Below, piece after piece: positions 29,040-52,558 of a stretch of 64,000 nt of DNA. The position numbers and the translations under genes are program-made. This DNA is from Tetrahymena thermophila SB210. Its lineage: Eukaryota > Ciliophora > Oligohymenophorea > Hymenostomatida > Tetrahymenidae. Where the stretch lies: positions 124,001-188,000 of the forward strand of contig NW_002476570.1 in assembly GCF_000189635.1 (NCBI RefSeq), given 5' to 3'. The stretch's first letter is position 1. Each line of letters starts with the position of its first letter. The notes beneath the pieces were generated by a model. That model saw only the letters and a list, made by a program, of their open reading frames with translations, was not told the origin of the DNA and made no database searches.

Positions 29040-29477
29040 ATGAACAAATCTTTAATTGCTATTCCTATTATTGCCCTTCTTGCATTAGGAGCTGTCTTCA
29101 TTTTAAATAAATAAGAATCCTCCAGCTTCTTATCTAACAGCTCTAACACCACTACTTTCACCTAATTAAGAACTTGTATTTAAAAAACTGACTTAATTAT
29201 CTGCGATTAAATTTAGGATGATGCTGAAAAATCTCTCTGTTATGCTGCTTCCTACGCTGTCTCTAGATTAACTTTCCCTGATGGAGATTTAATCACCGAA
29301 GCTTGCAAAAATTTCCATAACTATGAAGCCACTGCCAATGCTAATCAAATGATCAATTATTAGAATTACTATTTCAGCTGTTATCTTAGTGCTGATGTTT
29401 TAAGAGAAGCCTACAAATGTGCTAGCTTTTATGAAAAGATCTACACACCCCAATTTATCACTTGCGCTGGTTACTGA
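29040..29477 (+). CDS. small secreted cysteine-rich paralogue A (145 aa)
   Basis: Single exon, ATG 29040 to TGA 29475. Seen: MNKSLIAIPIIALLALGAVF signal or anchor helix (1-21), a short Ser/Asn/Thr spacer, then the family core: Cys before a CDQ motif, SLCYAASYAVSRLTF, EACKNF, YYFSCYL, an extra Cys in EAYKCASFY, EKIYTPQFITCAGY at the very end. It has seven cysteines in total. The usual FxxWxxC start of the core is FTQLRTC here, so the Trp is lost. First of nine paralogues in the region and 2.2 kb from the next. No homologue outside this cluster is recognised. It is probably exported; whether the N-terminal helix is cleaved cannot be told. Confidence 0.85.
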
Positions 29478-31668
29478 AAAGCTTCTAGAAATAAAATAAT
29501 ATTAGAGCTTCTGAAATCTAATAATTATATAAATATATCTTTTTATAAATATTTTAAAATTTTGTATGTTCTAAAACTCTAAAACAAATACATAATAAAA
29601 GCTTTTTTACAAAATCAATCTCAATTTTTTAATGAATTTTGTTTGATATTCCAATAAATTTCCCTATATATTTTGAATCCTATTTAATACTAATTAGGAC
29701 ATCTAGTTAATAATTCAACCAAAAAAAATTGTTTCCAATTACTAGAAATATCTAATTAAATATAATTGTTATTTTGAGAGCGAATTGGGAATCTCTCTTC
29801 TTAAATCTTAACTTTTTTTAGATTACACAAGTAAAAAAAAGTTTTAACAAAAATAAATTGAAACGAATACAATTTTAAATGTCTATAGAAACTAAATGCT
29901 TAGTGTAAAGTATTTTAAGACTACATAAAAATTGTTTAGTTATTTTTTATTCTTCATATTTTGGAAAATTTTAAATAATTTAATATTAATGCATTTTTTA
30001 TAATTTAAACTTAATGTAGAATCAATTAAATTTAATTAAATTTGACTCAAAAATTATGGAAATAAAAATATATTTCAAAATCTTATTTATTAATACTTTG
30101 AATTGATTGTATTTATGCTAATACGTGATAGATATTAAGTTAAATGCTATTTAAAATATATTTTCAATTTATTTTTTTATCAGGGTACTGAATTTAGCAA
30201 AAGGATACATTAAACTTTTTAAAGAGTAAAAAAATTTATTAAAATTATTAATAGAAAAAAATATTATTTTTCTAGAGGATAAAAATTGTTTCAATAAAAA
30301 TCAATTTATTTAAAGTAAATCTTTATTATAAAATTAATTTTAACTAAATTTGTCAAATATTTTCAAAAAAAATAAAAGAGATTATGATAAATATTTTTAA
30401 ATGCTACTAGCCACTTGACTTTGAAAAGTTATTTCTTTATATTTTTCTACACAATCAAAGGTGAGGTTAATTTGAAGTATTTAAATAATTTAAATTATTA
30501 TAAATTTGATAATCTATTTTAATTTTTCTAGCATATTATTAATTCCTAATTAGATTTCATTTTAATTATTGTTAAAATTTAATGAATAATAGTAAAAACT
30601 AAATTGATTTGCAAAAATGAATAAATTACAATAAAATTTATTTTTTGTTTATAAAATCTACTCTATAAAATTAAAAATTAAATTAATTTCTATTTTTTCA
30701 ATTTTAAAAGGGAAATAAAAACATAAACGTAATTATTGGTTTGCTTATAAAGAGTATAAAAATTTTATTTATTTTGAAAATTATCAGCAATTTGAAAGTA
30801 TGAAGATAATAAAAAAAAGATTAAAGTAAAATAAGCTAATAACTTTAGCTTTGTGTTCAATTTTTTGCATTTTATATATTTAATTTAAAAGTATGACTAA
30901 AAACAATATAGAGTTTATTTTAGATACATCAGACTGTCTAAATAAATTGATATTTTTAATGTAATTGAATTATCACTAACTTTACAACAATAAAAATCAC
31001 ATATTACTTTTATTTTAAAAAATTAAGGATCTTGCTAAAATTTATCATCCTGCTTGTTAATATTTTCCATACAAAAATTCATAAATTAAACTAATAGGTA
31101 TGTAAGCAAATATACCTTTTAAGTTCTATTCTTGTTATTTACTTTGGATATTATTGAAATTTTCACACAAAGTTCTTAATGTAAAGTATTTAAATGAAAA
31201 CTGAGAAAAAATTAAAGTCAAATCATATTGCATGCAATTTAAAAATGATAACAAAATTATTTTATATTTGAACTAATTTATTCTAAGCCTTTCAAAACAA
31301 GTACTTTTAATAAAATGTTTAGCATTACTTTAGATAAAGATATAATAGGTCTAAAATTGTATTTTGATAGTCATATTATTAAATATTTTCTATTGGTTGC
31401 AACTTTAATAATGTTAATCTTAATTGAAAAAAATTATGATGACGACAACTAATCAATTTGTCATTCAATTTTGAATGTAATATTAAAAATAATCTATAAT
31501 TCAAAGTATTCAAATTGATAAATGATAAATTTATAGAATCAATCTATCGTACTTTTCATGGTACTTAAATTTCTATGTAAAACATTACTTTATAAGCAGA
31601 TTAGCACTTTTGAAATTCAAAACAAATATTAAATTAAAAAAATAAAAAAAAACAATAAAAATATAAAA
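29478..31668. other. gene-free spacer between paralogues A and B
   Basis: AT-rich DNA with no paralogue remnant or other frame detected. Confidence 0.55.
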
Positions 31669-32109
31669 ATGAGCAACTCTAATATTCCTATCATCTTATC
31701 TTTGACATTAATATCTCTTGTCATTTTTGGTCTATTTGTTGGATCTGATAAGAATGCACTCACTAACTCCACCAACACTACTACATTCTCTTAGTGGGCT
31801 TCATGCTACACCAAATTGAACTCTACAACCTGTGATGACATTAAAAATAATAGCACTGAGCAGAATTTATGTTACTAGTCTTCTTTCTAAGTAGGTCAAC
31901 TTACATATGATGACTCTAACTTCACAACAACTGAATGCCATAACTTCCATTAGTTCTTTAAAACTGCAAAAAGTTCAGATATGATTAATACTGGTGATCA
32001 TTACTTCTATTGTTATATGAGTAGAGAAGTCTAAAATGCAGCTTACTAAAGCTAATACTATTACAATAAAATTTATAGACCAATCTACATAAGTTGTGCT
32101 GGTTATTGA
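31669..32109 (+). CDS. small secreted cysteine-rich paralogue B (146 aa)
   Basis: Single exon, ATG 31669 to TGA 32107. N-terminal hydrophobic helix (MSNSNIPIILSLTLISLVIF), a short Asn/Thr spacer with several Asn-X-Ser/Thr glycosylation sequons, then FSQWASCYTKLN, TTCDDIKNNS, NLCYQSSFQVGQLTYD, TECHNFHQFF, DHYFYCYM, YYYNKIYRPIYISCAGY. It has exactly the six core cysteines. It is closest to paralogue E, sharing NNSTE, QLTYDxSN and GDHYF, so B and E look like a recent pair. Codons are A/T-ending, unlike paralogues D, F and G. Confidence 0.88.
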
Positions 32110-32958
32110 TTTAAATTAAAAATATAATCTTTATATAAAAATAATAATTTATTTTCGTGAATAAAACTTTTTATTATAAAGTTAGTACCTTGAATGAATT
32201 GTTATATTAAAAATTAAAAAAAAATTAATTCCAAAACCAAAATATGAAATAATATTTTATTTAAAGAACTTTTTATTTTCTTTAAAAAATTACTTTTTCT
32301 CAATAAGATTTTGTTTGTGATATTCTATATAATATTTAAATAAAAATTGAAATAAAAGATATTCTATATTAATCAAAGTACCTAATTTAGTTTGTTTTAC
32401 ATGTGCAATTTTACAATTGAAATCTATTGAATGTAACTTAGCTATTCTAATTAATGTAATTTGTTGATATCAATTATGATATTCCAAATTTTAACATTTT
32501 TTATTGATAATCTACATATTTTAATAAATTCATCCAAGCAAGAAGTTTTTTGTATTGAAGTTTAGGCAAAAATGTCATTACTCTTTATTTGAAATTTAGG
32601 CTTTTAGATCATAAAAAGTAATAAATACAATTTTAGGATATTCGATACTAAAAATAAAACAAAAAATTTTAATAATTGAAAATGAAGTAATTTGTATGAT
32701 CAAAAATTTTATCAGAAATAACAATAGTAATATAAACAAAAAATAAATTATTAATCTAAAATTAATGGCAAAAATAGAACAAATTTATGGTTTTAACAAA
32801 AAAAGCATGCTCACCAGAAAATTGAGTTTTAATTTTATGTATGAATGTGAGATGGTAATAGCATAATTATTTAAACAAATTTTTTGATATCTGATTTTTA
32901 ATAAATACATTTGTTTGTTTGTTTTAATATAGTTAATAAAAAGAAGAATCTAAAAAAA
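32110..32958. other. gene-free spacer between paralogues B and C
   Basis: Shortest spacer of the array. It contains AAAATGTCATTACTCT near 32571, close to AAAATGTCATTATACTCT near 28753 upstream of paralogue A; this is a possible shared element but may be chance. Confidence 0.45.
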
Positions 32959-33390
32959 ATGAATTCAAAATTATTGATAGCACTTTCTTTGATCTCAATT
33001 ATTTCAATTGGAGCTTTTGCAGTTTACTCTTTTAACGGAGATTTAGAAATGGGTAGAAATCAAACTACAGTTTTCTAATGGTTCTCTTGCTTTACTAAAA
33101 ACACATAAGCTTAGTGTGATGATTTAAAAGATGAATTAGAAAAGACTCTTTGTTTTGCCGCTGCTCACGCTATTGGTGACTTCACCTATGAAGGTTCTCC
33201 CCTTGCAATCGAACCATGCTAATAGTTCCACAAATTCCTTAACCAAGCAAATACCACTGATGTCCTCAATACTGGAAATTACTATTAGAACTGCTACATG
33301 AATGTCACTATTCTTAAGGCTGCCTATTAAAGTTATTACTTTAACAACACTATTTACTATCCTTAATACATTCGTTGTGCCGGGTTTTGA
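32959..33390 (+). CDS. small secreted cysteine-rich paralogue C (143 aa)
   Basis: Single exon, ATG 32959 to TGA 33388. MNSKLLIALSLISIISIGAF helix, short spacer, then VFQWFSCFTKN, AQCDDLKDELEKTLCFAAAH, GDFTYEG, EPCQQFHKFL, YYQNCYM, AYQSYYFNNTIYYPQYIRCA and a terminal Gly-Phe. It has the six core cysteines and no extras. The Glu/Lys-rich CDDL helix is shared with D. It is the smallest member, with almost no spacer between anchor and core. Confidence 0.88.
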
Positions 33391-34324
33391 TTGAATAAAT
33401 AATAAATCTTAGATGAAAATTTAATAAATTTGATTGTATGAAAAAAATATATAAAATTATATGTTTAACAAAAATTTTAAAAAAGTCTATTTTGTTAAAA
33501 TTAAACAAATTTTGCTTTTAAAAAAAAATTAAAATATTTTCTTTTTTTATTTGAAAGAAATTTTCTCAATTTCATTTTAAAAATTATGAGTCTAAAATTT
33601 TGATTTCAACATTAAAAAAAGCACTTTCTATTTTAATTTTTATTAGTGTAAATAAAATAAGCTTTTTCTGATAATATGCTCTTTATATATTGTTTATTTC
33701 ACCATAATTTGACTCGATCGCTTAACTTTACTAAAAATATTAAGTATTATTGATAGACGCTGTGTGTGAATCAGATTAATCAATAAGAATCTCTCAAATT
33801 AGTTTTCTTCAAAAATATAGTAATATCATTTTGCTCATTATATTATAGTGATTTATACCGTCACTATTGATTCAAACAAGGATAAAATGCACTCAGAAAT
33901 GTCTCAATATAAATTATTCAATTGAAAAAAGATCTTAAATTTACACAAAATGAGTTAGATGGGTAAATAAATACCAATCTCTCAAGCTCTTTTTTGATTT
34001 TTGAGATTAAATAGCTAGATCAAAAATCTTTTTATTTTGAGTGTGTTTGTAATTAGTTTCTTTAGAATATCTATTTTGTGGTAAAAAATTATATTTTATT
34101 AAATTATTTTTTCTCAACTTAATTCATGGTAAAATGAACATCTTTCACCATTATTTTAAGATCAAAAATAAAAAAATAGAGCTAATAATTTAATGACGTA
34201 TATTACATTAAATTTAAGGTGTTTTATCCTTTATATCACAATATAAGTGAGCAGTAATTGTTAAAATAATACAATTATAATTAATTTAAAAAAAAAAAAT
34301 AAGCTTAAACCTAAAAAATTAAAA
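33391..34324. other. gene-free spacer between paralogues C and D
   Basis: AT-rich; no frame seen. TATCACAATATAA near 34235 also occurs as ATCACAATATAA near 35758, upstream of paralogue E. Confidence 0.45.
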
Positions 34325-34765
34325 ATGAATAAAATTTTGGCAATTACTATCCCCTTGGCTTTACTCGCTATTGCTGCTACTGTTGGTGGTATCATCATTT
34401 TTAACAAGCACCACACTCCTAAGCCTATTGTAAACCACACTACCATTTTCGACTGGTATGCTTGCTCCAATGGTCTTGAACACGCCTAATGTGATGATTT
34501 GAGTGATGAAACTAAAAAGTCAGTTTGCTACAATGCCTCAAATATCGTTAGTGAACTCACCTACAGTGACTCTGAACACGTATTAGAAGCTTGTGCTAAA
34601 TTTGCTGCCTACCTTAAAACTGCTTCTGCCTAAGATGAACTCAACTCAGGATCATTCTATGAAAACTGTTATCTTAACAAGCAAGTTACTAAAAACGCTG
34701 CTACCTGCTCTTACTACAACGAAAAGATCTACACTCCTTTCTATGTTAAGTGTGCTGGTTTCTGA
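34325..34765 (+). CDS. small secreted cysteine-rich paralogue D (146 aa)
   Basis: Single exon, ATG 34325 to TGA 34763. MNKILAITIPLALLAIAATV helix, spacer with HHTPKP, then IFDWYACSNGLEHAQCDDLS, KKSVCYNASNIVSELTYSD, EACAKFAAYL, FYENCYL, an extra Cys in AATCSYYNEKIYTPFYVKCA and a terminal Gly-Phe. The extra Cys sits in the same place as in A (between core cysteines 5 and 6), making seven. Codons are strongly C-ending (TAC, AAC, TTC, GCC), which in Tetrahymena marks highly expressed genes (inference). Confidence 0.88.
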
Positions 34766-36010
34766 GCATTAAAAAATATTAAAATACATTGATTATTGAT
34801 ACTATTTTTTAGCATTTATTATGCATAAAATTATATATCTAGATACCAGATTGAACCCCATTAAATATTACTACATAAAACATAAATACTTTAACCGAAA
34901 AGTGTTTCTCAAATTTTTGTTTGGTAGTAAAAAATGAGGTTGAATCAGGTATCCTACTATCTAATATATTATAAATTAGTATTTTACATATATATTTTTT
35001 TTTGAAATTTAATTCAAATTAATGAACAAAATCAATTAGTGGCATATATTTATTTATATTATTTACCAAAATTTAATCAAAAATATAATTTTATGATAAT
35101 AAATCAAAGTTAGAGTAAATAATATTGAATTTACATGATTACAATGCTAATATAATTTAGAATATTATTTAGTGAGGATTCTAAAGTCAAACTTAATAAA
35201 TTAATATAAAAAATAAACAATTTAAGAAAATAAGATTTTTTTTTTTAAACTTATGAAAATAAAAAGAATTATTTTAAAACAATAAAAAGTATTATTAAAA
35301 ATATAATGACTTATAGTATGAATTACAAAAAAAAGTAAAGTTCCTTAAATATTTAAAGAAATAATGTAATTTGCGGTTTAATAAATATTTTGTAAGCTGT
35401 AAAATATCTTATTCAACAAACAAATAAAATTTTTACATTTTAAATAAATGATATTCCATTTAATCTAATTAAAGAGATTGAAATTTTAGTTAATGTAATT
35501 GACAAATGAATTTGAATAATCAAATTTGAACAACTATCAATCATCGGTATATCTTAGATGCTTATTTAAGAGAAATTATTATAAAAATAAAATTGTTGTT
35601 ATCAAAACATAATTATTTATTTAGAATACCTATCAAAAAATTTCTTATTCCTTAATTGTAAATATCAATTTTATTTTAGATATGACTTAGAGAATCTTGT
35701 AAACAAAACTATTTTGATGCTTGCAAATCGCTTGATAAAGAGTAAGGATGATAGTATCATCACAATATAATTCTGAAATCAAAATTTAGAATATTTTTTA
35801 CCCATAAATTATTATATACTATTCCAATTTTAAGATTATTTAGATTCAATTATTCTTTGAATAGATAAGTAGGTATTTGTGTATTTATGATGGAAAATTC
35901 AAATAATATCTTTGCATACAAAAGCTATAAAAACTATCTGATTAAATTGAAATATAAAAAATAAATTAAATTAAAAAAAAAAAATCGTATAAAAGAAAGA
36001 ACTTTTTAGA
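34766..36010. other. gene-free spacer between paralogues D and E
   Basis: No frame or paralogue remnant detected; AT-rich. Confidence 0.55.
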
Positions 36011-36457
36011 ATGGCTAATTACAAATTATCAGCATTTTTATCTGTTGCTTTAATATCCTTGGCAGTATTTGGTAGCTATTTAGCTATTAATGGAAGAAAC
36101 TAGATGTTAGAAAACTCAAGCAATACCACTACATTCTCTAAGTGGGCTTAATGTTATACCAACCTAAATGCTACCAGCTGTGAAGATGTTAAGAATAACA
36201 GCACTGAATTAGCTTTATGTTACAGTGCTTCATATGGTGTTGGCTAACTCACTTATGATGGATCAAACCAAACTACTAGTGAATGTCATAATTTCCGTCA
36301 ATACTTCAATAATGCTACAAGCACTGATTATATCAACTTAGGAGATCACTACTTTAACTGCTTCTTAAGTGGAGATATTTTGAAAATTGCATATGAAAGT
36401 TAATATTATTATAACTAGGTCTATACTCCTATTTATATTACCTGTGCAGGATATTGA
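36011..36457 (+). CDS. small secreted cysteine-rich paralogue E (148 aa)
   Basis: Single exon, ATG 36011 to TGA 36455. MANYKLSAFLSVALISLAVF helix, Asn/Ser/Thr spacer with sequons, then FSKWAQCYTNLN, TSCEDVKNNSTE, ALCYSASYGVGQLTYDGSN, SECHNFRQYF, GDHYFNCFL, YYYNQVYTPIYITCAGY. It has six core cysteines and is nearest to paralogue B. Several Asn-X-Ser/Thr sites cluster in the spacer and first loop, as expected for an exported glycoprotein. Confidence 0.88.
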
Positions 36458-37951
36458 AAGAATAGAAGATTATTAAATTCAATTTTATCAATCAATCTGC
36501 AAAATGATAATTGATTTAAAAAAAATAAATAAATACCTTATATAAATAAATATATATTTTGAAGATTTTATATATCAATTGAATGTGTTTTTTTCGCAAA
36601 TCAATTTTACTATCAATCAATATTTTTTAGATTATTCATTTTTATTTATTTTTCAAAACTAAATGAATATTTTTCTGATCAGGCAACACTTTTAAATCAA
36701 TGAAATAATTAATAGAGATTAAATTGATTATCAATAATTGAAAGTGTTACCTCAAAATATAACTTTTAAAATTTAAATTAATTTAATAGCAAAATAAATT
36801 CTTTAAATATGCTTAATAAATAATATTTTTTATAAAAAAAATACTTGAAATCACAACAATATTTTTATAAATTAATAAATGTCTTAGTAAAATTTTCATC
36901 ATTTTAATGTAAGGAGCTGTCTTTAAATTAAAAAAAGTCATCAAAATTCAAATTTTAAAATTTAAATATTATTTAGAGGATAATTGAATAAACACAATTC
37001 TTTTATTCATTTGCATATTTTTAATATTTAACTAACTTTCAAATAATGTAAACAGAGTAAAACTTATGAAACATAAAGTCATTAAGCTACTGGTTAATAA
37101 ATTCATAATAATTTATAACCATTTTAATACAAAAATAATTATTATCATAGATTAAATAATTATTTAAAAGCAAAACATTATTCAATCCTTAAAAAAAATT
37201 AGAATTATTTATTTCTTAAAAATATTGAGGAAGATAATTTTTTACTTTACTTGAAACAATCTCTCATAGAGTATTATTTTAATTTAGTAAGTAATAAAAA
37301 ATACATAAGAGCTAGTACTCACTTATTTTGTTGTCAATTAAAGTAAGTTAGCAAGCAATATAAAATAAAAAATTGTGACTTTTGTCTTTATGTTTTTTCT
37401 TTTATTTAATTTTGCTCAAAGTAATCTATTTCAGAGGAAATTTGTTTATTTATTTATTTTTACAATATATCTTTAAAATATGTATGTATGTATTTATATA
37501 TTTATTTATGTTTATATTCTTTGTTTATTTGTTTGCAAGAAAGATTTTGGCAAAAAGAAGATTGGGATGACTGTATTAAATTTAGATTGAAAATACATGT
37601 ATATGTATTTAGTAATATAAGCGGATGGAATATCCAAATCATTCATTCACATATAATTCATTCATTTATTCATGCATATAAAAATATTTGTAAAATAAAT
37701 CAAATCATGTATTTTAATTTACTTATTTATTCATTCATTTATTGATTAATTTTTTAATCATCAAGTAATTGATAAATAATTTAATTAATTAATTGTAAAA
37801 CAAAAAAGACTAAAACTTTATTTTCGTTTTCCTTTCCATTAAAAAATGTGGAGACTAACAAAAAATTCATGAACATAATTATATAATAGTATTTATATAC
37901 TTTTAATTTGTTATGATTTTAGTTAAAATTTCAGATTCGAAACTTCAAAAC
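36458..37951. other. gene-free spacer between paralogues E and F
   Basis: AT-rich, with TTTA/CATT-type simple sequence near 37440-37745 that creates spurious open frames. No gene seen. Confidence 0.55.
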
Positions 37952-38386
37952 TCAAGCAGAGAGCTTAGCGCAAATGAGGTATTGGGGAGCGAAGATCTTA
38001 TCGTAGAAGAAAGTAGATTGCTTAGCAGCGGCAATGACGTAGGAGTTGGTGTAACAGCTAACGTAGAAACCATTGTTGTTGATTAAATCTTCAGCCTTGT
38101 GGGGATTGTAGATCTTGTTGTAGAAGTCAGAGCAGGGTTGGATTTAAGAGGTACCTTGGGTCAAGTTACCAACATCAGTGGAGGCTTTTCTGCAAGCAGA
38201 AATGTTATCAGCATCCTTGCAGGAAATGGGAGTACCAGTGGTACCAGAGCAAGATTACCATTAGGAGAAGCTAACGTTGTCAACGGCATTGGAAGCCTTC
38301 AAACCCTTTTATTAGGCTAAGAAGAAGACAGCACCGAAGGTGGCGAGGGCCAAAATGGGGAGAGCAATGAGTAACTTTTTGTTCAT
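37952..38386 (-). CDS. small secreted cysteine-rich paralogue F (144 aa)
   Basis: Single exon on the minus strand, ATG 38384-38386 to TGA 37952-37954. MNKKLLIALPILALATFGAV helix, spacer, then FSQWQSCSGTTG, ISCKDADNISACRKASTDVG, QPCSDFYNKIY, GFYVSCY, FFYDKIFAPQYLICA, ending KLSA instead of Gly-Phe/Tyr. It has six cysteines but diverged around cysteines 2 and 3 (CKD, ACR in place of CDD, CY). Codon use is the most biased of all nine, with nearly all TTC, TAC, AAC, CCC and GCC, so it may be the most highly expressed member. Confidence 0.88.
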
Positions 38387-41300
38387 TTTTATTATCTGCT
38401 TTTTTTAATGATTTTTTAATCTTTTAGGATTTTTGATATTATTTAATAATCTGAAGGAATAAAATGAAAATTTAAAAAGAAGAAACTCCACCAAATCCAA
38501 ATTCTTTCATTTTCTCAAGATACATTAACTTTCTTTTATTTACCATTCAATCAATATTTAAAGCTCATACTTAACAAAAATTAATAATACTAAATTAACA
38601 CTATTAATGTGAATGAATGAATGAATAATTGATCATGTAAAATAATCAAAAACCACCAAGATTCGCTATCAAATAATTAATTTATTATCTCAAAACAATC
38701 ACACAAATAGAAATTATCATATAGTAAAAACCTCTCCCTTTTTTGCTTCATTTATTTTTTTATATCATCAATACAAAATTGGTAGCCATTTTACCTCTCA
38801 AACATTAATTTAATTTAGAAGGTTTAATTATTTTCGATCAGAAAAATTTACTTTTCTATACTAAAAATATTTAATTTATCTATCTATCTAAATTTACAAA
38901 AAGGAAGCTCTTCTGAATATTTAAAGTTTCTCATTATTTTTTTCGATTCATCAGCAAGGAATTGCTTTATTAATTTATGCCGTAAAAGTGTTTTTTTTGT
39001 TAAACATTTTAGTTAAATTCCATTAAAAAACTGTCAAATGACAGGAAATAACAATAATTTAAATATTTTCAAAAGAATAGGGAATCTAAAATTGCTTAAT
39101 TTAAATTTAATTTGCATGATAATTAATAAACTTGATAAAATTAGTTTCATTACTTTCTCTTTTTTTTATCTTTCGCTTACAACTTAAATTAAAGCTCTTA
39201 AGATGGGTTTTTTGATTTATGGTTGAAATAAATTTCAAAATGCGCTATATTCGTTATATATGCACTCAATTTAATATAAAATGACGATATTTATTATGGT
39301 TTTTAAGAACTTCAAAATTCATCTATTAGATCAGAAAATAGTTCAAAATTATTTTTTCAACTTCTGCGCATTTAATTTTGTAGAAAATTAAAATCGCTTG
39401 CACTATGAAATAAATTTGTACTTTTGTTTATGGTTATAATATTAAATAAACAAATTAGGCTATATTTATTTAATTAACAAATTAGACACTTTATTGATTG
39501 ATTATATGAATGCTTAATGAAATAGAAAATTGAAAATTTTATTCTCACTTTTATATCAAAACTTCAAATATATAAAAATAAATAAGTGGATCTGACTAAA
39601 GTAGGTGGAACCAAGATAATGTTTTGAAGGGAAAAATAAAAAATAAGATTGAGGTAATGAGAAGTTTTATTTATAGTACGTAATGATTTAGTATTATTAA
39701 ATTTAATTGTCCAAGATCTAATTGATTAATCAATTATCAGTATAGGTCAAATAAATAAAAGGTTTATTCTCATTTCCAATATGCCTTTGATTTCATGTAC
39801 TAAATTTACATTAATTCAATGATTGCAAAGTAAAACTCATAATTAACTTTTTAATTACATATCAAGAAAAATACCTTTGCCATTATTTTTTAAAACAAAT
39901 TCAAAGCAAACAAACTTTGAATGATAAAAGTGCGTATAAAGAGAAATTTCATTTGAATTTTGTCAACATTATCAAACATGTAAGTTGCTTATAAATCCAA
40001 AATAAAAAGTTTGGTAAATAAGAACATTTTAAAACTAAACAATGTATTTTTAAAATAAATGAATATAATCCATTATTAGATAATAGTTCGACAATTTTAG
40101 TTTATTAGTATTTTTAAGTTGTTTGTAAATATCATTTTCAAAATAAAAAATTTCATTTGTACTATAAAGCGAGTTTATTCAAAAGAATTTACTGTAATCT
40201 ATCGGACTAAATATTGAAATCAAAAATTTACTCAGTTGTTGATTGTAAAGTATAAAAAAACAATATCAGAGATATAAAAGCCATTTATTTAAGTAGAATA
40301 TTTATATATTTAAAACCAAATTCCTATATTTGAATCAAAGATAAGATTTTATTGTAATAGGATTGAAAATCAATAATTAAACAAGCTTTCAATCCTCTTT
40401 AATTTATTGTAATTAAGGCAGGTTTTTTGTTTTAAATAAAATTTATATCACTCAAGGACAAAAATTTTATTTTATTTTGAAACTGAGTTCAATTTATGTA
40501 ATTTTTTACTCAAGCTTTCAATAAAATTTAAAACAATTTTAATAAAATTTTATATTTCTTACAAAATTTTGAAATTATTGAGACAAAAATGTTTTAGTTT
40601 TAAAATTGATGCAATTATTTTTTAAAAGGATTAATAATCAACTCACTTAAAAATTTATAAATTTTTTAGCATTAAAAATCATTTATAATAGCTTTTTAAT
40701 AGTGATTATTAATAATCTAGATAATGATAAACATAGAGCTAAAATTAATATTAAAATATATTCCATTATTAAATATTAAATTCATTGTAATTGGTAAATA
40801 AAAATAATCTCTTCTTTTATATAAATAATCTTCAAATTTATAAATTTAGTCAATTTTATTTTTATGAACAAAAAAATAGCTTATAAAATGATTTGACTTT
40901 TTTTGATAACAAATAAAATAATTGATCTAAATTTATTAATTTTTTACATTTTGTTGAATTTAATTAAGATAAAATCATTTCAAACAAATAATTTATTTTC
41001 AAAGCATAAAACTGAATCTAGCAATTATTTTACGAATAAATTTTTATTATAATTTCTAAATATAAATTACTTTATATATGATTAATCATTAAATTTTATT
41101 AAAAAATATTTTATTTTATCTATTAATTTAAATAATAATTTCACATTCTAAAGAAATCTTTATTTTTTAAGTTATAAATATATTGAAATATTCAAATTTT
41201 TAATAAGTCCCAAAAGAGTAGTAAAAATAGTAAAAATGTTTTATTTTTTAAACCATACTTTTATACTTAAATTAACTAATTTTTAGTAAGAAATGTTTTA

Positions 41301-42554
41301 AAATAGAGCATTTTAATAAGACACATAATCCATTATTTATTCTCATCATTTTAAAATATTAAAAAATAGTAAATTAAATTAGTTAAAAGAGAAATCATAT
41401 ATCTTTAAATTCAGATGTCAAATCTAATTTATATTATATTTTATATAAAATTTAATCATCAAATCATAAAAAAATATATTTTTTTGAATATTTATTTGAA
41501 AAACTTAAATAAAAAACAATAAATTTAAAGATAAATTAATAAAAAAATCTTAAATTTTACATTTATCAGTTAATTAAATTATCTGATCCATCTTTTTGAT
41601 AAGTTCCTATAATCAGTAAAGAATCATTTTTACAAAAAAAGATTAAAAGTCTTTTGTATTAGTATAAATAATAAATTATTACTTATTTACTAAATTATGA
41701 ATTCAAATTTTAGAAAAATAAATAAAATAAAACTAGAATTGTTTTTAATTTTATATAAATTCAACCAAATTGTTTAAATATTTTCATTCACTTATGTTTT
41801 TAAAAAAGTTTCCAGAAATATCTTTTTAAAAATATGTCAAACTTCTTAATATTTTTAAGTTAAACTTTTCGCATAATATTATTCATTTATTTATTTGCTG
41901 CATAATTTTAACAAATAAAAAAGATATTCTCAAAACTACTCAACTAAGAGGATTTTATTAGTAAATGAATATGTATATTATTTTATTGATTGAATAAAAT
42001 TTAGCTATTTTAAATATGTAGTAAGCAAAAATTTATCCCCAATATTTATCAAATAAATAGCTAAAATTGCAATTGTGCCTTCCAAACATTATTCTAAGTT
42101 TTGTATTTTAAAGTAAGGATATTAATTTAGATTATTAATTGTATATATTTATCTGTTTTACACTCAACTAAAATTTTTTGCTCAAAAATTAAATTGGATG
42201 ATCAGAAAAATAGATATTGCAATCAGAAGATTTTTTTTGAAGCAAATTTTGTTAAGAATGATGTGATTAAGTAAGTAATTGTAAATTTAATATTATCATC
42301 AAAGCTTATAAATTTTTTAATTGTTTTTTGTACACTTTTTTATTATTTGATATGATATTTTCTCTATTTGTTTAATACCTTTAAAAGTGTTTTTTTTTTT
42401 TGTATGAATTTGACGATTTTCGCTTTGTCTTACTTCAAAAAAAATAATAGAAGAAAAGTAAATTATATCAATTTCAAATACTTTATTTTCTAAAGCAATT
42501 TATTATTATTAATAATTAAGAAAAAAATTAAATATTGACAAAATATCAAAAAAA
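38387..42554. other. 4.2-kb gene-free region between paralogues F and G
   Basis: This is the divergent intergenic region of F (minus) and G (plus). No gene recognised. A GAAT tetranucleotide repeat lies at 38611-38627. Confidence 0.55.
38611..38627 (+). repeat. GAAT microsatellite
   Basis: Four tandem GAAT units, about 225 bases upstream of paralogue F. Confidence 0.7.
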
Positions 42555-43064
42555 ATGAACACTAAGTTATTAATTGCTCTTCCTATCTTGGCTCTCTTAT
42601 CTATTGGTGCTGTCTTTTTGATTGCCCACAAGAAGGCTCACGTTGTTGATAATATTCCTGTTGTTGATGGTACTACCGTTGATGAAACCCCTAAGGACAA
42701 CAACACCACTGTTGACCCTATTACTCCTAAGAACACTGTTGATATTGATGACTGGTAGAGATGTTTCCAAAAATTACCAGTTAAAATGTGCGATGACTTA
42801 ACTACTGAAGCCGATAGATCTGACTGTTACTCAGCTTCTTACTAAGCCTCTCAATTAGTCTTCCCTGACACTACTAAGGAACTCCCCTCTTGTGTTTCTT
42901 TCTACTAATACTAAAAGGCTTCCTAAACTGATGCTCCTGTCAACTATAACAAGTACTACTAAGACTGTTTCCTTAACGCTGACGCCGTTAAAGCTGCTAA
43001 GACCTCTGCTTACTATTACAACAGTATTTATGCTCCCAAATACATCACCTGCGCTGGTTTCTGA
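42555..43064 (+). CDS. cysteine-rich paralogue G with long spacer (169 aa)
   Basis: Single exon, ATG 42555 to TGA 43062. MNTKLLIALPILALLSIGAV helix, nearly identical to F. The spacer is expanded to about 40 residues, Val/Asp/Pro/Thr-rich, with two related units (PVVDGTTVDETP and NTTVDPITPKNTVD). Then the core: DDWQRCFQKL, VKMCDDLTTEADRSDCYSAS, LPSCVSFYQYQ, YYQDCFL, YYYNSIYAPKYITCA and terminal Gly-Phe. It has six core cysteines. Codons are C-ending. The spacer looks like an extended stalk that would hold the core away from the membrane if the helix is an anchor. Confidence 0.88.
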
Positions 43065-45965
43065 GTTGATTTATTAAAAACTAAAATGAATTATAAACAC
43101 AGAGTTATTTTATATAATATATATCGAAATAAGCTATGAAGTATTTTTTCACAAAAATTAAATAAAAATGATCATTCTATATTCATTTTAGTTATTTCTT
43201 TCAAACTTTTATTCTGCATTTATTCCTTTTAAACTATAAAAATATTTTAATCAATTTAATAAAGAAATGTTTTGATATAATTTTCTTATTTTAATATCCT
43301 TATTTTAAGCAGTATTCCAGCTAATATTCTATTTGTAATACTTTAGTAAAAAGAAAATACTTTTTGTTTGTTTTTAGAAAGCAATAATAGTATAAGACAC
43401 TAATAGAGTAATCTAAATTTCTAACATTTGTATGATTAAATAAATAAAATTAAAGTTACTAACTAAATAAAAAAGAACATTAATCATATCTCAAAAAAGA
43501 TTACAGTATTTCTTTTAAAATAAAATTTCTTCCTAGCTTTTAACTCTATAACTCATTAATCAAAAGCAAATTTTACCTCAATAAAAATTGCACTTCTTAT
43601 TAAGTAAATATGTTAAGAAAAGTAATAAAAAAAATATTAGTTAATTAGTTTTACAGATTTAATGTAATCAATAATGTATTAAAAAATTTTAATAATTTTA
43701 ATTTTAATATGATAAAAAATTATGATTATTTGACACAATTAATTTATGAGTTTTTTTATTTATTGAAGATCATTCATTCATTCTTTAATTTTGGATATAA
43801 TTTTTTCATGATTATTGCAATTTAAAACAAACTTTATTTATGAGTAAATATTCTTAATAAAATACTTTTCTTGTATCAAATCTATTTTTTATTGGTTAAA
43901 ATAAAAATTAAATTCTTATTTTTATTTTTAAATGACTAATAAAATCAAAAATTTTATTTTTAAACAGGGTTTAAAATCTAAAAAATTTTTAGGATAAACA
44001 GATTGATTTAAAAAATCATAAATTGCTTAAATTATTATTTGATATTAAATTATTAATAATTTAGAAAATTTAATTAAAATTAATCATCTTAATTTTTTTA
44101 AAACCCTATTGAAAATAGTTATTTTTAGAAATTTTTGTTATAATTTGTTTATTTATTAGTTTTAATTTTTGCTTTTTTAAAATAATAATTTTTTTTATTT
44201 GTTTTCTATTTTATTTTTTCTACTCCAATTTTTTTTGATAATAATTATTCTACCAAATGGAAATTCTATTAAAACTTAGAAAAGATTTTTCAAGCCTGTC
44301 TATAAAATTAAACTTAAAATAAAAATAATTTTATTTGGCAACAGTCAGTAATATAAAAGTTTGATGAAAAAATAATGGCTAAATCAATAAATGGTAATAA
44401 AAGTATCTGCAATAATGTATTTTTGGCAATTAAGCCAACAAATTTCTCCTATTTAATTCCTTATTTAATAAAAAATTAATTTAAAAGTATAAATATTTTA
44501 ATAATATTGCAATCTGTATTATTACGGTTGGTGATATTTTAAATTCAAGATTCACTGTTTTTTTATTATTTCAATTTATTTTTATAATTTCTACTATAAT
44601 TACTTTAATTTGAATTTAATTGTAGGTTTTATAAAAAATATAATGATTATTTTGGTAAATTTAAGTTGCAATAACATTAAAGGATTAATTTATACCTATC
44701 ATTTATTAATAACCTGTAAATAGAATGATTTTAATTTATTAAATATAAAAATGTTATTTTACTAACTACTGGTAGAAATTAAATTTATCTTTCATAGCTA
44801 AGAATCTTTTATAGCATAGTTAGTTATCTTTATAAATTTATATATTGCAAGTCACAAATTGAGACGCTACTATTTAGATATTGATGAAACTATTGCTGAT
44901 TGTTATGTAATAAAAATAATTTTTTTATGATTCACTAAATTGAATAATCTAAAATTTGGTAAATAATTATTTTGAATTATGTTTATTACTTGACCTACTT
45001 ACTTTTATTTTAGAGATTCAAATCTGTAATATTGCTTTAATTCAAAACAAAATAATTTTTCTATTTAAAATATCTTTTATTCTAATCATTTTTTATTTAC
45101 TTTAATTAATATGTAAGAGTTTGGCTTAAAGTATTTATAAAATTTATTTTCTATAATTTCACCTAATGAAACTGAATATTTTGATTAATTGATAGCTATT
45201 ACTTTAATTTTTACTCAATTAATTAGATTATTGTACTGATATTTTTATGATACTATTAACTAGCATTTGATTTTTATCATTGATTAAACTCAATAAATAA
45301 ATATTCTGTTAGCTTTTAAGTGTAATAACTTAATCAACCTTCTTTTTATTATTTTTGTTGCATATTTCTTAAAAATATTTTAGACATAATATTTATTAAA
45401 AAAGCTTAAACTTAAAGTAAGAATTATATTAATTGTTTTATGAAATATCATTTTTTAATATTTGAAAAAGCTTTGTAATAAAAATACTAATTATTATTAT
45501 TTTTTAATATATCATCACTGAACCATAATAATCTTTTACACTAAACTCAATCATAGACTATTAAAAAATTACTCATTTTTATCTAAGGGTTAAATTTATC
45601 ATGAATAAAATATAGCATTTTACTTCATAACCTGTGTCTTTTTTATTTTGAGATTTATCATTTTTTTCTTAGTTTTAAATTTATCATAAGTAAATAATGC
45701 TATTTTATTTCATAGCCAATATTCTTTTAACCTAGAGGACACTTACTCATTTTGCTTTTAATATTGATTTGATTAGACAAAGATATTTCGTAATAAATTA
45801 GTTATAATTTTGAAAGAATTACATTTATATTTATTAATAATAAGATCTGCCTTCTTTTTTAAATAAATAAAATGAATAGTTATTAGTAATTTAGCCAAGT
45901 TATATATTATATTCTAAAAAATACACTCTCTAAAAAACAAATAAAAACAAAGATAATTATTTTTT
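43065..45965. other. 2.9-kb gene-free region between convergent paralogues G and H
   Basis: AT-rich; no frame, repeat family or paralogue remnant recognised. Confidence 0.55.
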
Positions 45966-46436
45966 TCAATATGATCTTAATCCAGCACATGTCAAATACT
46001 GAGGTGCGAATATTCTGGTATAGTAGAATTTGTCAGATTTGGCACCAGCAATTAAAGTACTCTTGCTGAAACATCTATGGTAGCTTCCATCAAAATCGAT
46101 ATAATCATTGGCATTTGCCCTTTCAAAGTTCTTCCAGAACTAGGTGCAAGCACAAGTTGCAGTAGGAACAGAAGGCCACATTTACTTAGTGGCGAGGTAG
46201 CTTGCATTATAGCATGATGATCTTTAGTTTTCAGGTAAATCGTCACATTTAGGAATTCTTGCATTATAAATACAAGTCTTCCATTAGGTGTAGGTAACTC
46301 TAGCACAGCCTGGATTAGTATCAGGTTCTAGGTAGCTTTCATCATCAGTAGAATCCATAAGTAATGCATCACTTCTGAATACATAGTAAGTACTTGCCAA
46401 GAGAAGGAAAGGAATGACTAAGAGTAATTTATTCAT
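45966..46436 (-). CDS. divergent cysteine-rich paralogue H (156 aa)
   Basis: Single exon on the minus strand, ATG 46434-46436 to TGA 45966-45968. Short helix MNKLLLVIPFLLLASTYYVF, an acidic spacer (MDSTDDESYLEPDTN) with an extra Cys (PGCA), then YTQWKTCIYNA, PKCDDLPENQRSSCYNAS, a double Cys in ATCACTQFWKNF, SYHRCFS, FYYTRIFAPQYLTCAGL ending RSY. It has eight cysteines, two more than the core, which would allow one further disulphide (inference). The LTY segment of the others is replaced by MWPSVP. Confidence 0.87.
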
Positions 46437-49400
46437 TTTTTTTTTTTACTTCTTTTTTAATTTTATTTGTTTGTTTTATTTTTTTATAATTTATCATACA
46501 TAATCCTTTTTGATCTGAGTATTTAAACAAATTTGTCAACATATATTTACAATAAAAACTCAATTAATTACATTTAATACTAATAAATAAATTAAAATTA
46601 GCTTGAATATCAGGCAGAGTGAGTACATTACTACTATTATAACATTTAATAAAAATGCTTGTTATAATAAAATAAAAAGTATAAAAATAATAGAGAGAAT
46701 AAATACATTTTTTAATTTTTAAAAAACAAAATAGAAAAATGAATAAAAATGGTTAATCATATATAAAAATGCAAACACTGAAAAATAGAAAAATATTAAT
46801 AAGGATTTGCAATTTTATTTAATAAGATTTATCTCAAAGTATATATTAAAAAAATACCTAGGGGTTCCTTAGTTTTTGATATCCTTATAAGAGAATACTG
46901 AAATTAATTAATCACTTTTATTATAAAACTTGCAAAGAGTGACGGCAATTAAAATTAATCTGATAAAAATACTAATTTCATTCCGTTGATTCCAGTAAAG
47001 ATTTATAAATTAGAAACGAATGGCAATCATACAATACATTTTTTTAAAATATTTATTTTTGTATTCTTCATATAAATTTGAAGAATAAATTAAAAAATTT
47101 CTAAAATATTTTAATACTTGATATTGAAAATTTATTTTTTTAAAAATGTTAAGTATTCTATCTATCCTAAAATAAAAATGTTAATATCTCATTTTTATTT
47201 AATCTTAGATCTTTTGTTTTATCTATTTAAGCTAGAAATTAGTTAATAAAAGTTAAGCAAATCAATAAAAAAAACAATTCACTTAATAGATAAATTGATT
47301 AACAAAATATGACTCTTCAATAATTTTAAGGATAGCATTTATTTGTAAAAATATGAATCTATAATCAAAATTCTAATCATCAGCTAAATATCCATTTCAC
47401 AAAGAAAAGAAAAGTGATGAGTGATCATTTTAGTAAATTTTTAGAATGTATACAATACTTTTCTATAAAATGCATTCATTTAATAAATAATCCAAAATTT
47501 AAATATTTCTTTACTTTTTTCTTAAAAAATGTCATTACTAAATTTATATAAAGAATCTTATATATAAATAACTATGTTTAAGTAAATTTTATGTCTTTTT
47601 TGATAAGAAAGATTGAAAAGTGGGTTATCATTTACTTTTAAAAGTAATGTAATGAGAGAGAGATAGAAATAAATCTTTAAAATGATATTATTCTATCAAA
47701 AAATAAAAAAACTCGTACAAATTTAAATAAAATAAATTGAAGATATGGGATTTTAGAAACGGAAAAAATCTAAATCCAATTTTAATTTCCTATTGCATTT
47801 CATAAATAAATAAAATTTATGTTAAGGTTTTTAATTAATTAAAAATCAAAAATAGACTAACCAGAAATTAATACGAGAAATTTGACTATTAAAAAAAGGG
47901 ATTTATTTGCTTTTACTTAAAATAGAAATGATAGATATTAGCTTCCTATTCAGAAATATATTTATTTTTTCATAAATCTATCTTATTTTATAATATAAAT
48001 ACATTTTTTAAGAAAAAAAATTTCAAAAAGTAGTACTTCTTTTTTTGTTTATTGCTTCTATAGTAAATATATAAAATTCTAATTTAAAATTATTAATCAA
48101 TGCATTTTAAAAAGATAGCTATTTTTATTTTGAATCATGTATTTGATAAATAGCAGCAGCTTAGTTTTTATTAAAAGCAAGCACTAAAAAAGGAAAAGAT
48201 AATAAATAATGTATCAATCCCCTATTTAAATTTAATGGTGAAACATCAACTCAAATTATTCTTATCATGCTTATTCCTACCACAACTAAGAATAACATTT
48301 TTTTATAAGTCTTTCATAATTGTCTATAATAAAATTTAGAATTTAATATGAAAGGAATATATTGTCAAAATAGTCTGGAAAAACTATTAATGTGTATATT
48401 ACTATCTTTTTTTATTTTCATTGTATTCACTAGTGTCCTCTTTATTTTTTCTTAACTATTTTTGATCAAATTATGATTGAAATATGTAACATTTTGGGAA
48501 TACATAAAGAAATACATATTTTATGGCAAAAAGAAAAAAAGACTAATAAATTTTAAAATAATTGTAAAATCTAACAATTAGATAATTGAATTATTCATTA
48601 GCTTTAAGGATTTTAGGATAAATATAAATCTATTATATATAAGAGAATTTTAAATATTTTACTCTACCTTCAATCTATTATTATTTTTTACATTTGGTTT
48701 TTAAATATATAAAAATCTTACCCCAAAAGAATTGTAGATAGACAGATATTATTATTTAAAATCTATAAGAATTGATTAGTTTAAATTAATCTTTTTTATT
48801 TATTATGGTTTTTAATTACCAAGTCAAGCTTTTTAATAATTAGATCCACACCACATTTTAGACTATTCGAAACACATTTTTCATATAAACTATCACTTTT
48901 ATTTACAGCCAACTAAATAACTAACCACCCCTTCCATTTTTAAACAAGCCAAACTAATTATAATACAACTTTTACAATGACTATTAGAAATATTCTATGA
49001 TTCTAATTTATCAAATTATGCTTACTATATTTAGATATTTATTTTTCAATTAAAAACTATTAGTCAGATAGTCATTATTTTCTTCGAAAATGTTTCAATA
49101 ATAATTTTTGAAATAAATTAAATTTATTTTATTCAACTATTTTTTTTATGGAAATTGAATATTTTTATGCTTATTTTCAATAGAATTTTTTGCTTTTATT
49201 TTATTTTAAGTTAGGAGATGTTATGAAAATTTTTAATCTCGTATATAGATATCAGATATATGGATTATATTTAAAAAATAGGTGAATAAATACACAAAAT
49301 ATTCATTTAATTTAGAATAAAAGCTAACTCGTTAACATAAAATTCGTTAAATAGTCTACTGAGTAAGTACTTCTCTAATCTCTTAAAACCCAATAAAACT

Positions 49401-51918
49401 TTCATATTTACATATTCTTTTATTGTTTAGAGCTAACGGTTTTTACGTATTAAGCTAAAAATTTAAAATTAAGGTAGCATTAAGTTTAAAAATTATTTTT
49501 ATTGTTTGTTTGTATCATAGGGATTAACTATAATTATTGATTTAGATTAAATTTATTTAAAAACTCTTATAAATTTATTAGACAGACAAACAATTATTTA
49601 TTTGGGGACAAATTTTTATTTTAAAATTCTAACCATCAAATTTATTTGGATTTTTTACTGGTAATGTTATGAAAATTAATTTTTAACACTCTTATAAATT
49701 TATATATTATATAGTTTTTTTAAATATAGTTTTACAAATATGAATAAGAAGACATTGACGTAAACTGAATTATGTATCCATTTCTAATTATTATCTTTTT
49801 GCTAGTTTTATCTTATTAGCAAAAGGCCATTTGTAAACATTTAAACATAAAAATTAGATTATTATAAATAAAAGAAATAAAGAATAGTCATTATTTATAT
49901 ATCCTTAACTAAATAAATGCTATTAAAGTGCAATTGTTTCCACAAAAATTAAAGTAGTGTTTGTCATTGATGAATTTGTAAAACATAATAGAATTGTAAT
50001 TATGTATTTTTATTTTAAAAATTGCTTACTAACTCCCTTTCTTCCTTCTTCCTTCCATAAATTATTACCTTAGGGGTTCAGTATTTATTTTGAGATATCA
50101 AATATTATAATCACACCTAATTTGATAAATTATGACAGAGAAAAACACAATTTTAAATAAAACAAGTAAAATAACACAAAGAGGATTTAAATTTTGACAT
50201 TATATTATAATGATATTTATTACCATCACTCATTATGTATATTATAAAATTTTTCCATTTTTGTGTTTTAATAAAATACATATAAAAGAATTTTGTATAA
50301 AAAACTATTTCAAATAACAAGAAATTATATTTTAAATATTTTTTATAAAATTAAATATAAACAATAAATTAATAGCACTTGCTAGAGCTTAAAAAATAAT
50401 AAAAGTAGAAATAAAGATCTATCAATAATAATTTTAAAGAGAACATTTTATTTTTATGATACAATTGCAGTTTAATAGTTTTATGATTTGTAGTCTTTTT
50501 AGATAACTAAATAATAATAGATAGTTAAGCGAATTTATTTAAACAATATTTATAAAAGATTTAACAAATCTGATCTATTTATCAACTAGATTAGCTTGCT
50601 TAAGATAAGGTTTTAATTAGATTGATTGATAACCACCTAATAAACAAACTATTTTTATTGATTTTTTTGCTATAAAATATGTTTAGTAATATCTTATAAA
50701 GAGTAGAAAATATTTTAATGCATAACTAATATATGTGATAACATAATAGCCTAGATATAGTTATATTATTTGATAATTAAAAAGCTTAAAAACCTTATAG
50801 AAAAGATTTAATTAAATTTATAAAGTAATTCAGATTTTTTAGTATATTTCTTTTATAGATAAATAGGAGAGAATAAGATTTACTGATTTGTTCCTATTTA
50901 TTTTTATTTATTACTGCTAAATAAAATAAGATATTAGAAGACGATCTAAAAAAGCAGCTTATTAATATTTACACTTTATTTTTAATTGTGCTTAATAAAC
51001 TCAATTTATTCAAATTGAGTAATATGAAAGCCGATACATATATATATATCCTATTTTTCCATAAAATTGTGTTTTTAAAATAAAGATTTAGCTCGCTTAA
51101 ACACAATTTTGAAAGAATATTTTCATGAAAATTTTATTTAAAATAAAAGTTTATGTTAGTTTAAGTTTTGCTTATATTAATTAGCACTTCAATATGTATG
51201 TATTAAATAAATCAATATTATACTATTAGCTCTAAGGAGGAGATATTTCTGAAAAGATATTCAATAAAATATTTATTTACTCATCGAAATGTTGTAAAAT
51301 AAATAGGAGCTAGCATATGAAAGCCAAGTTATATAATCAAAAATAATTCATTTCCAATAAACATATTATTTTAATTAATATTAAAAAGATAGTTTTTAGG
51401 GATATTGAAAGCAACAAAAATAGTAAATCAAAACTTTTATTAAATTAAAACATAATTATCTCAGTAAAAAGTATAATAAAAAAATAATTTCCTCTTACAA
51501 TTCAATACAAATTAATAAAGCTAATATATTCAAAAAACAATATAATATTTTCATTATATTTATTAAATATTTATTTTTTCATAATAGAGCTATGACTGAC
51601 TGACTGACTTATTTTTCAAAATATTTAATTAATTAACTTACCTCTTTTATAAAAAGATTATTTTTTACATCTATAAATATTTAAATTATTTATATAAATA
51701 TTTATTTATAGATAGATAGATATGTAGTGATTCATTTTAAAAATATTTTAGTTTAGAAAAATAGTAATAGAGAAAATCATATTTAAAAATCAGTTCAAAC
51801 TTTTATAATGAATGCAATTTCACATATAACAGAAACTACAATTTATAATATATTATAACTTTTTATTATTATTTTAGTTTCGAGCAAAAAGCGAAAGACC
51901 AGTATAACCAATCTATGC
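46437..51918. other. 5.5-kb gene-free region between paralogues H and I
   Basis: Largest gap in the array. Both strands were read; no gene or clear paralogue remnant found. It holds a TGAC repeat at 51593-51608, a GATA run near 51706-51722 and many A/T runs. Confidence 0.5.
51593..51608 (+). repeat. TGAC microsatellite
   Basis: Four tandem TGAC units, about 310 bases downstream of paralogue I. Confidence 0.75.
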
Positions 51919-52558
51919 TCAATAATTGATATTACCACATTCAAGATAAAGCTTTTTGAAAATTCTGTTGTAGTAAAAATTAGATTTTTAAGCCAAGCTT
52001 AAAACTCTGGAGTCAGCAAAGCAGCATTCAAACCATCTATTTTTATTCAACTTAGCATCAGCAGTTGTGTTTTCAAAGTATTTATACCAGTTCTTGCAGG
52101 CATTTAACTCATGTTTGGCAGAAGGGTATACCAAATCAGCAACAGCTGAGGCATACTTATAACAGGTTTATCTTTCACTAGCAGGGCTATCATCACAAGT
52201 AGGAACACTGTACTTGTAGCAAGTAGCCCATTAGAAAATAGAATAGTTATCACAAGGACAAGTATCAGCTCTTGCAAAACATTTATTGCAAGTCAAATCA
52301 TTTTCATCATGGTTAGGATCTACACTAACAATTACATCAAGGTAATCAGCAGGGTTTTCAGCAAGAGGAGTACCTTAGTTCAGATAGAATGCTGCTCCAA
52401 TCAAAGCAGTAGTAAGGGTTAAACCAATAACTATTATAAAATAATATATATTATTTTACATAAATAAATCTTAAAAATAATATTGCCATAATAGTTAAAA
52501 TAATTGATTTTTTATTTATTGACAAATATTTCTTACTTAAAAATTTGGAGGTGTTCAT
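51919..52558 (-). CDS. most divergent cysteine-rich paralogue I, two exons (177 aa)
   Basis: Exons 52558-52537 and 52430-51919 (minus strand), joined by a 106-base GT-AG intron that splits the eighth codon. This is the only intron in the family. MNTSKFLIIGLTLTTALIGA helix, an acidic 25-residue spacer, then an inserted cysteine module (LTCNKCFARADTCPCDN, four Cys), followed by the core: IFQWATCYKYS, PTCDDSPASERQTCYKYAS, LNACKNWYKYF, WFECCFADS, FYYNRIFKKLYLECGNINY. It has eleven cysteines; the last motif is ECGN rather than CAG. This is probably the oldest or fastest-changing member. The start is fixed by the first exon, since the second alone has no suitable Met. Confidence 0.85.

Follow-up and report, generated by a model that had tools for sequence, protein, structure and literature searches.

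A nine-gene array in Tetrahymena thermophila and its wider family of small, cysteine-rich, putatively membrane-anchored proteins

What is encoded by nine small genes of a common cysteine plan that follow one another in the macronuclear genome of Tetrahymena thermophila, and is the set confined to that place? The array occupies 29040-52461 of a 64,000-nucleotide stretch (C10:124001-188000; here the window). The favoured answer, to which a probability of about one half is given, is that it samples a larger family of membrane-anchored scaffold or binder proteins of the cell surface or secretory pathway, type II in topology and with three disulfides, as judged from sequence patterns and one structural model.

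In outline, an MNK or similar start followed by approximately 19 uncharged residues would be an uncleaved signal anchor, placing a compact helical domain of about 100 residues outside the cell or in a secretory compartment. Three disulfides would hold this domain, as cysteine co-variation suggests. Five of the cysteines are fixed and the sixth has two alternative sites: C3 of framework I, in helix 2, and C5′ of framework II, which aligns with the beginning of helix 6 in gene A; we infer that C3 and C5′ bond the same partner cysteine. Six members may have a fourth bridge, C3b-C5b. The role would be structural or binding, e.g. surface coat, adhesion or ligand capture, rather than catalytic.

The nine genes and the DNA between them

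Read under ciliate code 6, all nine open reading frames (ORFs) are confirmed. Each is a single open frame requiring no intron, has in-frame TAA or TAG and stops at TGA. Genes A-E and G are on the plus strand, with F, H and I on the minus strand; the end given in the initial annotation, 52558, is 97 bases past the ATG of gene I.

29040..29477, plus: gene A, 145 amino acids (aa); framework I and, near the C5′ site, one additional Cys (7 in all); Leu in place of Trp; modelled with AlphaFold
31669..32109, plus: gene B, 146 aa; framework I; 6 sequons
32959..33390, plus: gene C, 143 aa; framework I
34325..34765, plus: gene D, 146 aa; framework I and, near the C5′ site, one additional Cys (7 in all)
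36011..36457, plus: gene E, 148 aa; framework I; 7 sequons; sister of B (nonsynonymous divergence, dN, 0.30; synonymous divergence, dS, saturated)
37952..38386, minus: gene F, 144 aa; framework I; histone-like codon usage (77/117 favoured codons)
42555..43064, plus: gene G, 169 aa; framework I; long linker
45966..46436, minus: gene H, 156 aa; framework I with two more Cys (8)
51919..52461, minus: gene I, 180 aa; framework I with five more Cys (11)

That the similarity within the array is not due to chance follows from a genome search with gene A, which recovers the other eight at E 1.1e-5 to 1.5e-28. The shared plan described initially is borne out by alignment: six cysteines are invariant in 9/9, the Trp is missing in gene A only, CDD is present in six (B, C, D, G, H, I), Tyr follows the third Cys in 7/9, Tyr or Phe follows the fifth in all, and the last Cys is at the extreme C-terminus with just 3-6 residues after it. 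The accompanying statement that nothing else is encoded in the 23 kb is also supported, by GC windows, codon scores and the lack of relic copies. The nine ORFs sum to about 4.2 of the 23.4 kb, and their GC content is 32-45% versus 17-19% in intergenic DNA. Between 28 and 54 kb every 200-bp window of GC ≥27% touches one of the nine genes or their edges, bar a marginal one at 33700. Among the 75 best codon-scored stretches of the window, intergenic coding signal is weak only; the codon model, trained partly on the family, leans towards it, and the GC result is independent of that model. No relic copies were found between the nine genes, the best match inside the array but outside the genes having E 0.006 with composition correction off, and the best outside the nine genes, E 0.001, being at 3.2-3.5 kb, beyond the array. 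A search for a common upstream motif of the array genes gave only A/T-rich words of doubtful weight.

The family across the genome

Searches of the 101 Mb macronuclear assembly (445 contigs) with nine members (A, G, H, F, C172, C248a, C262a, C51 and C179) yielded, with duplicates removed, at least 36 genes with 37 domains on 17 contigs, the counts being lower bounds. Though the array is real, the family is thus not the ‘nine-gene’ one first described. The 40 distinct ORFs were reduced to 34: of those dropped, four were end-cut copies of retained genes, one overlapped gene C in the wrong frame, and one was an N-terminal part of the broken C73b; C265 and C179b were added later, and the codon, sequon, N-terminus, conservation and selection analyses cover at most 35 of the 37 domains. 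As read, the proteins are single-exon, mostly of 132-180 aa, and carry one domain (two in one gene); 33/37 domains are acidic. Clusters outside the window are C73 (four members), C248 and C114 (three each), and C422, C262 and C179 (two each), and there is another member on C10 about 51 kb past the window's end. The nine window genes do not group together as a clade on the tree (7 label changes); the array therefore did not arise in a single recent burst.

Several individual loci deserve mention. At C22:730039-733389 one gene has two tandem family domains behind a single N-terminal hydrophobic segment. At C73 ~479-978 a paralogue has its N-terminus and domain in different frames, either a pseudogene or a sequencing error. 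The three C248 members are within the last 6.4 kb before the telomere, and at C248:429235-431791 a family member stops about 660 bases from the contig end, itself a (GGGGTT)n run.

Searches for known relatives

The initial view that the family is an unrecognised one holds: no convincing match was found in Pfam, NCBIfam or PDB sequences. Scans of 9 and of 23 members against Pfam-A gave no family at E <0.024 and none in more than one member, with full tables for the first member only and 13/36 genes unscanned or represented by near copies. With NCBIfam the lowest E was 0.0088, in one member only. Profiles of 9 and 23 members, run at E up to 10 against sequences in PDB, where Euplotes pheromones are present, gave one chance-level match each (best E 1.1), neither named a pheromone. 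Fold comparison, with 16 chains only, revealed no similar fold. With the gene G ectodomain as sole query, neither the 6 pattern matches in viral contigs nor the 32 in prokaryote genomes included a relative. Among the titles and abstract openings listed no paper describing the family was found, though a locus-tag annotation would have been missed in this way.

Cysteine frameworks and predicted fold

In the 37-row alignment C1, C2, C4 and C5 are present in 37/37 domains and C6 in 36/37, the exception being a fragment that ends before the C6 site. The sixth cysteine is C3 in 20 and C5′ in 17, never both and never neither. C3b and C5b co-occur in the same six members, with 2 changes on the tree. 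Both co-variations are what disulfides would predict, even if the underlying evolutionary events may be few. On a tree built without the columns surrounding C3 and C5′, 3 changes of framework are required; a single origin of framework II is not rejected (approximately unbiased test, p-AU 0.465 with 37 rows and 0.399 with 35). The naive chance of the perfect C3/C5′ exclusivity, 6e-11, is a figure that ignores relatedness. Genes A and D have, besides C3, a Cys two residues before the C5′ site (counted from the conserved Pro), and may be living intermediates of the swap.

Given gene A and the nine-row alignment, AlphaFold placed 106/145 residues at a predicted local distance difference test score (pLDDT) of ≥90, with a predicted template modelling score (pTM) of 0.72 and six core helices. 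For gene A alone, then, an all-helical ectodomain of about 100 residues is predicted with high confidence. Where a residue other than Cys holds the majority in the ectodomain (35 rows), it is aromatic, aliphatic, Ala, Asn, Gln, Thr, Pro or Gly; no examined column, with both frameworks taken together, has an acidic, basic or His majority, which argues for a structural or binding role rather than an enzyme. A bolder proposal, made tentatively and with the odds judged to be against it, is of a new fold absent from PDB, in which a compact ectodomain of six helices has five cysteines in fixed places and a ‘migrating’ sixth, two alternative disulfide frameworks thus coexisting in one genome. If the anchored, three-disulfide reading is right, the two frameworks would offer a naturally occurring and testable example of a disulfide moving within a single fold.

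The N-terminal segment and the destination of the domain

For the N-terminus the set was 33 (C265, C179b and the broken C73b left out). An uncharged stretch of 16-23 residues is present in 32 of these, and in C114a it is 13, broken by a Gln. With the amino end counted, the net charge before it is +1 to +3. Bulky residues mostly close the stretch, no AxA-like site is apparent and, judged by eye, it resembles a retained anchor more than a cleavable signal peptide. N-glycosylation sequons in the window nine number 29 versus 15.5 expected, and 0/2000 shuffles were as high, though repeats such as NSSNTTT may inflate the count. Use of this enrichment as proof of passage of the whole family through the endoplasmic reticulum (ER) was considered and rejected, as it holds in the window nine only.

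Several observations detract from the anchored, three-disulfide reading. Outside the window the 26 domains show no sequon enrichment (29 versus 33.1 expected) and for all 35 the figure is 58 versus 48.7 (p 0.07). By eye the N-terminus of C265 could be cleaved, and in wD, C335, C114b and C248c the charge after the segment is as high as that before it, leaving the positive-inside rule neutral there. The exclusivity of C3 and C5′ may reflect perhaps one to three evolutionary events, such that the 37/37 do not amount to 37 independent observations. The number of cysteines after residue 28 is odd in 6/37 domains (A, D, I, C10_239k, C442 and C179b), and C442 has a Cys near, but not in, the C3b column and none at C5b.

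Cleavage of the N-terminus, with release of the domain as a soluble pheromone-, growth-factor- or defence-like protein, is one alternative. Being small, acidic, cysteine-rich and, from the one model, all-helical, the proteins would be of the physical class described for Euplotes pheromones (PMC10393739, PMC9229436). However, the bulky ends of the hydrophobic stretch, the failure of either PDB profile to name a pheromone, and the presence of 36 loci as against alleles of one mat locus make such secreted signals unlikely. Of comparably low probability is that the proteins are lumenal cargo of mucocyst, food vacuole or ER, e.g. small carriers of ligands or lipids, rather than surface proteins. 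The same topology would serve, the conserved aromatic positions could line a pocket, and one gene has two tandem domains.

Codon usage

The set of favoured codons came from a comparison of three histone H3 genes with seven background frames (six from the window and one TERT stretch), with the family excluded; the three were those of five histone-domain stretches that passed a motif filter, the other two being unused. The score is 0.736 for C51, 0.658 for F, 0.439 for G and 0.411 for D, and 0.14-0.43 for other domains (C265 0.261, C179b 0.276). The reference scores, 0.65-0.74 for histone H3 and 0.17-0.31 for background, are both partly self-fitted, but those for the family are not. Most members are at the background level. 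So wide a spread of codon bias within the family hints at F and C51 being abundant, highly expressed forms, with the remaining paralogues minor or conditional. If the anchored reading is correct, the model ciliate has at least 36 anchored disulfide proteins in a family not yet catalogued, and the two genes with histone-gene codon usage would specify an abundant surface or secretory component absent from the literature listed.

Selection

Diversifying selection was initially suggested from the variability of spacers and loops, but spacer variability alone is no proof and the ratio dN/dS does not bear the suggestion out. From 35 rows there are 595 pairs, with dS usable in 459; the closest window pair, B and E, has saturated dS. 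In the five closest usable paralogue pairs the ratio is 0.30-0.43 (C422a/b 0.30, C248b/c 0.32, C228/C172 0.35, C73c/C73a 0.42, C73c/C73b 0.43), and in the eight closest usable 0.24-0.51, none exceeding 1. Within the C73 cluster it is 0.70 for C73c/C73d and 0.86 for C73b/C73d. The median of usable pairs is 0.56, and some deep pairs are >1, up to 1.47. These are discounted, as roughly every second site differs, the alignment is uncertain and dS is kept low by A+T-rich codon usage; they are not read as positive selection, nor counted as excluding its operation at single sites.

The idea that positive selection is rapidly diversifying the family for an antigenic or self/non-self recognition role is accordingly improbable. 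It draws on the multiple copies in several clusters (C248, C114, C73, C422, C262, C179), the position of three members within 6.4 kb of a telomere, and the C73 ratios, which reach 0.62-0.70 among intact genes and 0.86 with the broken copy. Also pertinent is that T. thermophila ‘extracellular’ genes have the top median ratio of nonsynonymous to synonymous polymorphism (pN/pS, 0.19) among cellular-component Gene Ontology terms (PMC10868616). However, close pairs never exceed 1, and the nine are not the product of one recent burst. Slightly less probable still is that these are mitochondrial intermembrane-space single-pass proteins with disulfides, for which a single N-terminal hydrophobic segment with a helical Cys-rich domain and a chance-level COX6B match in one member (E 0.21) can be cited, but the nine have no CX9C pair (C1-C2 is CX7-9C and C2-C3 CX8-12C), no PDB chain matches although T. 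thermophila respiratory complexes are solved (PMC10227065), and sequons are enriched in the window nine.

Other features of the window

GC in the window is mostly 16-27% per 2 kb, in keeping with the 22.3% given for T. thermophila (PMC10868616). The species is further indicated by a stretch of the assembly's telomerase gene, which over long exon runs is identical letter for letter to the TERT chain of PDB 6d6v, a T. thermophila structure. The neighbours of the array are:

1931-2671, plus: short-chain dehydrogenase, PF00106, E 5.1e-28
3489-8186, minus: 1566-codon open frame with strong coding score; no Pfam match at E 0.001
13222-14181, minus: TPR_TmcB domain, PF25474, E 2.2e-23
22174-23943, minus: Asn/Gln-rich open frame of about 590 codons with high coding score and raised GC; no Pfam match at E 0.001
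56973-58286, plus, right of the array: H-type lectin domain, PF09458, E 2.5e-15

Comparison with known systems

CHCH, or twin CX9C, proteins are helical, disulfide-braced and sometimes have one membrane segment, but the cysteine spacing of the present family differs and Pfam COX6B is matched at chance level only. Oomycete elicitins offer another parallel: their extracellular domain is helical, has three disulfides and some 100 residues, and carries its final Cys close to the C-terminus. However, their cysteine spacing is different, and no elicitin match appeared in the Pfam scans of family members.

Closer in organism are the species-specific expanded families of Tetrahymena, LRR, GFR cysteine-rich and others (PMC6564038), which are likewise multigene, often tandem and in some instances near chromosome ends. 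In the Pfam scans, however, the present family matched none of the seven domain classes given for them. The analogy to ciliate pheromones made at the outset is partly sound. Euplotes pheromones are secreted products of 37-105 aa from alleles at one mat locus (PMC9229436), and differ in sequence and genetics from the present family, which has 36 loci, is apparently anchored by its N-terminus and matches no PDB sequence. In physical class the two appear to correspond, both being small, acidic and Cys-rich with variable segments between fixed cysteines, and helical if the one model holds for the family.

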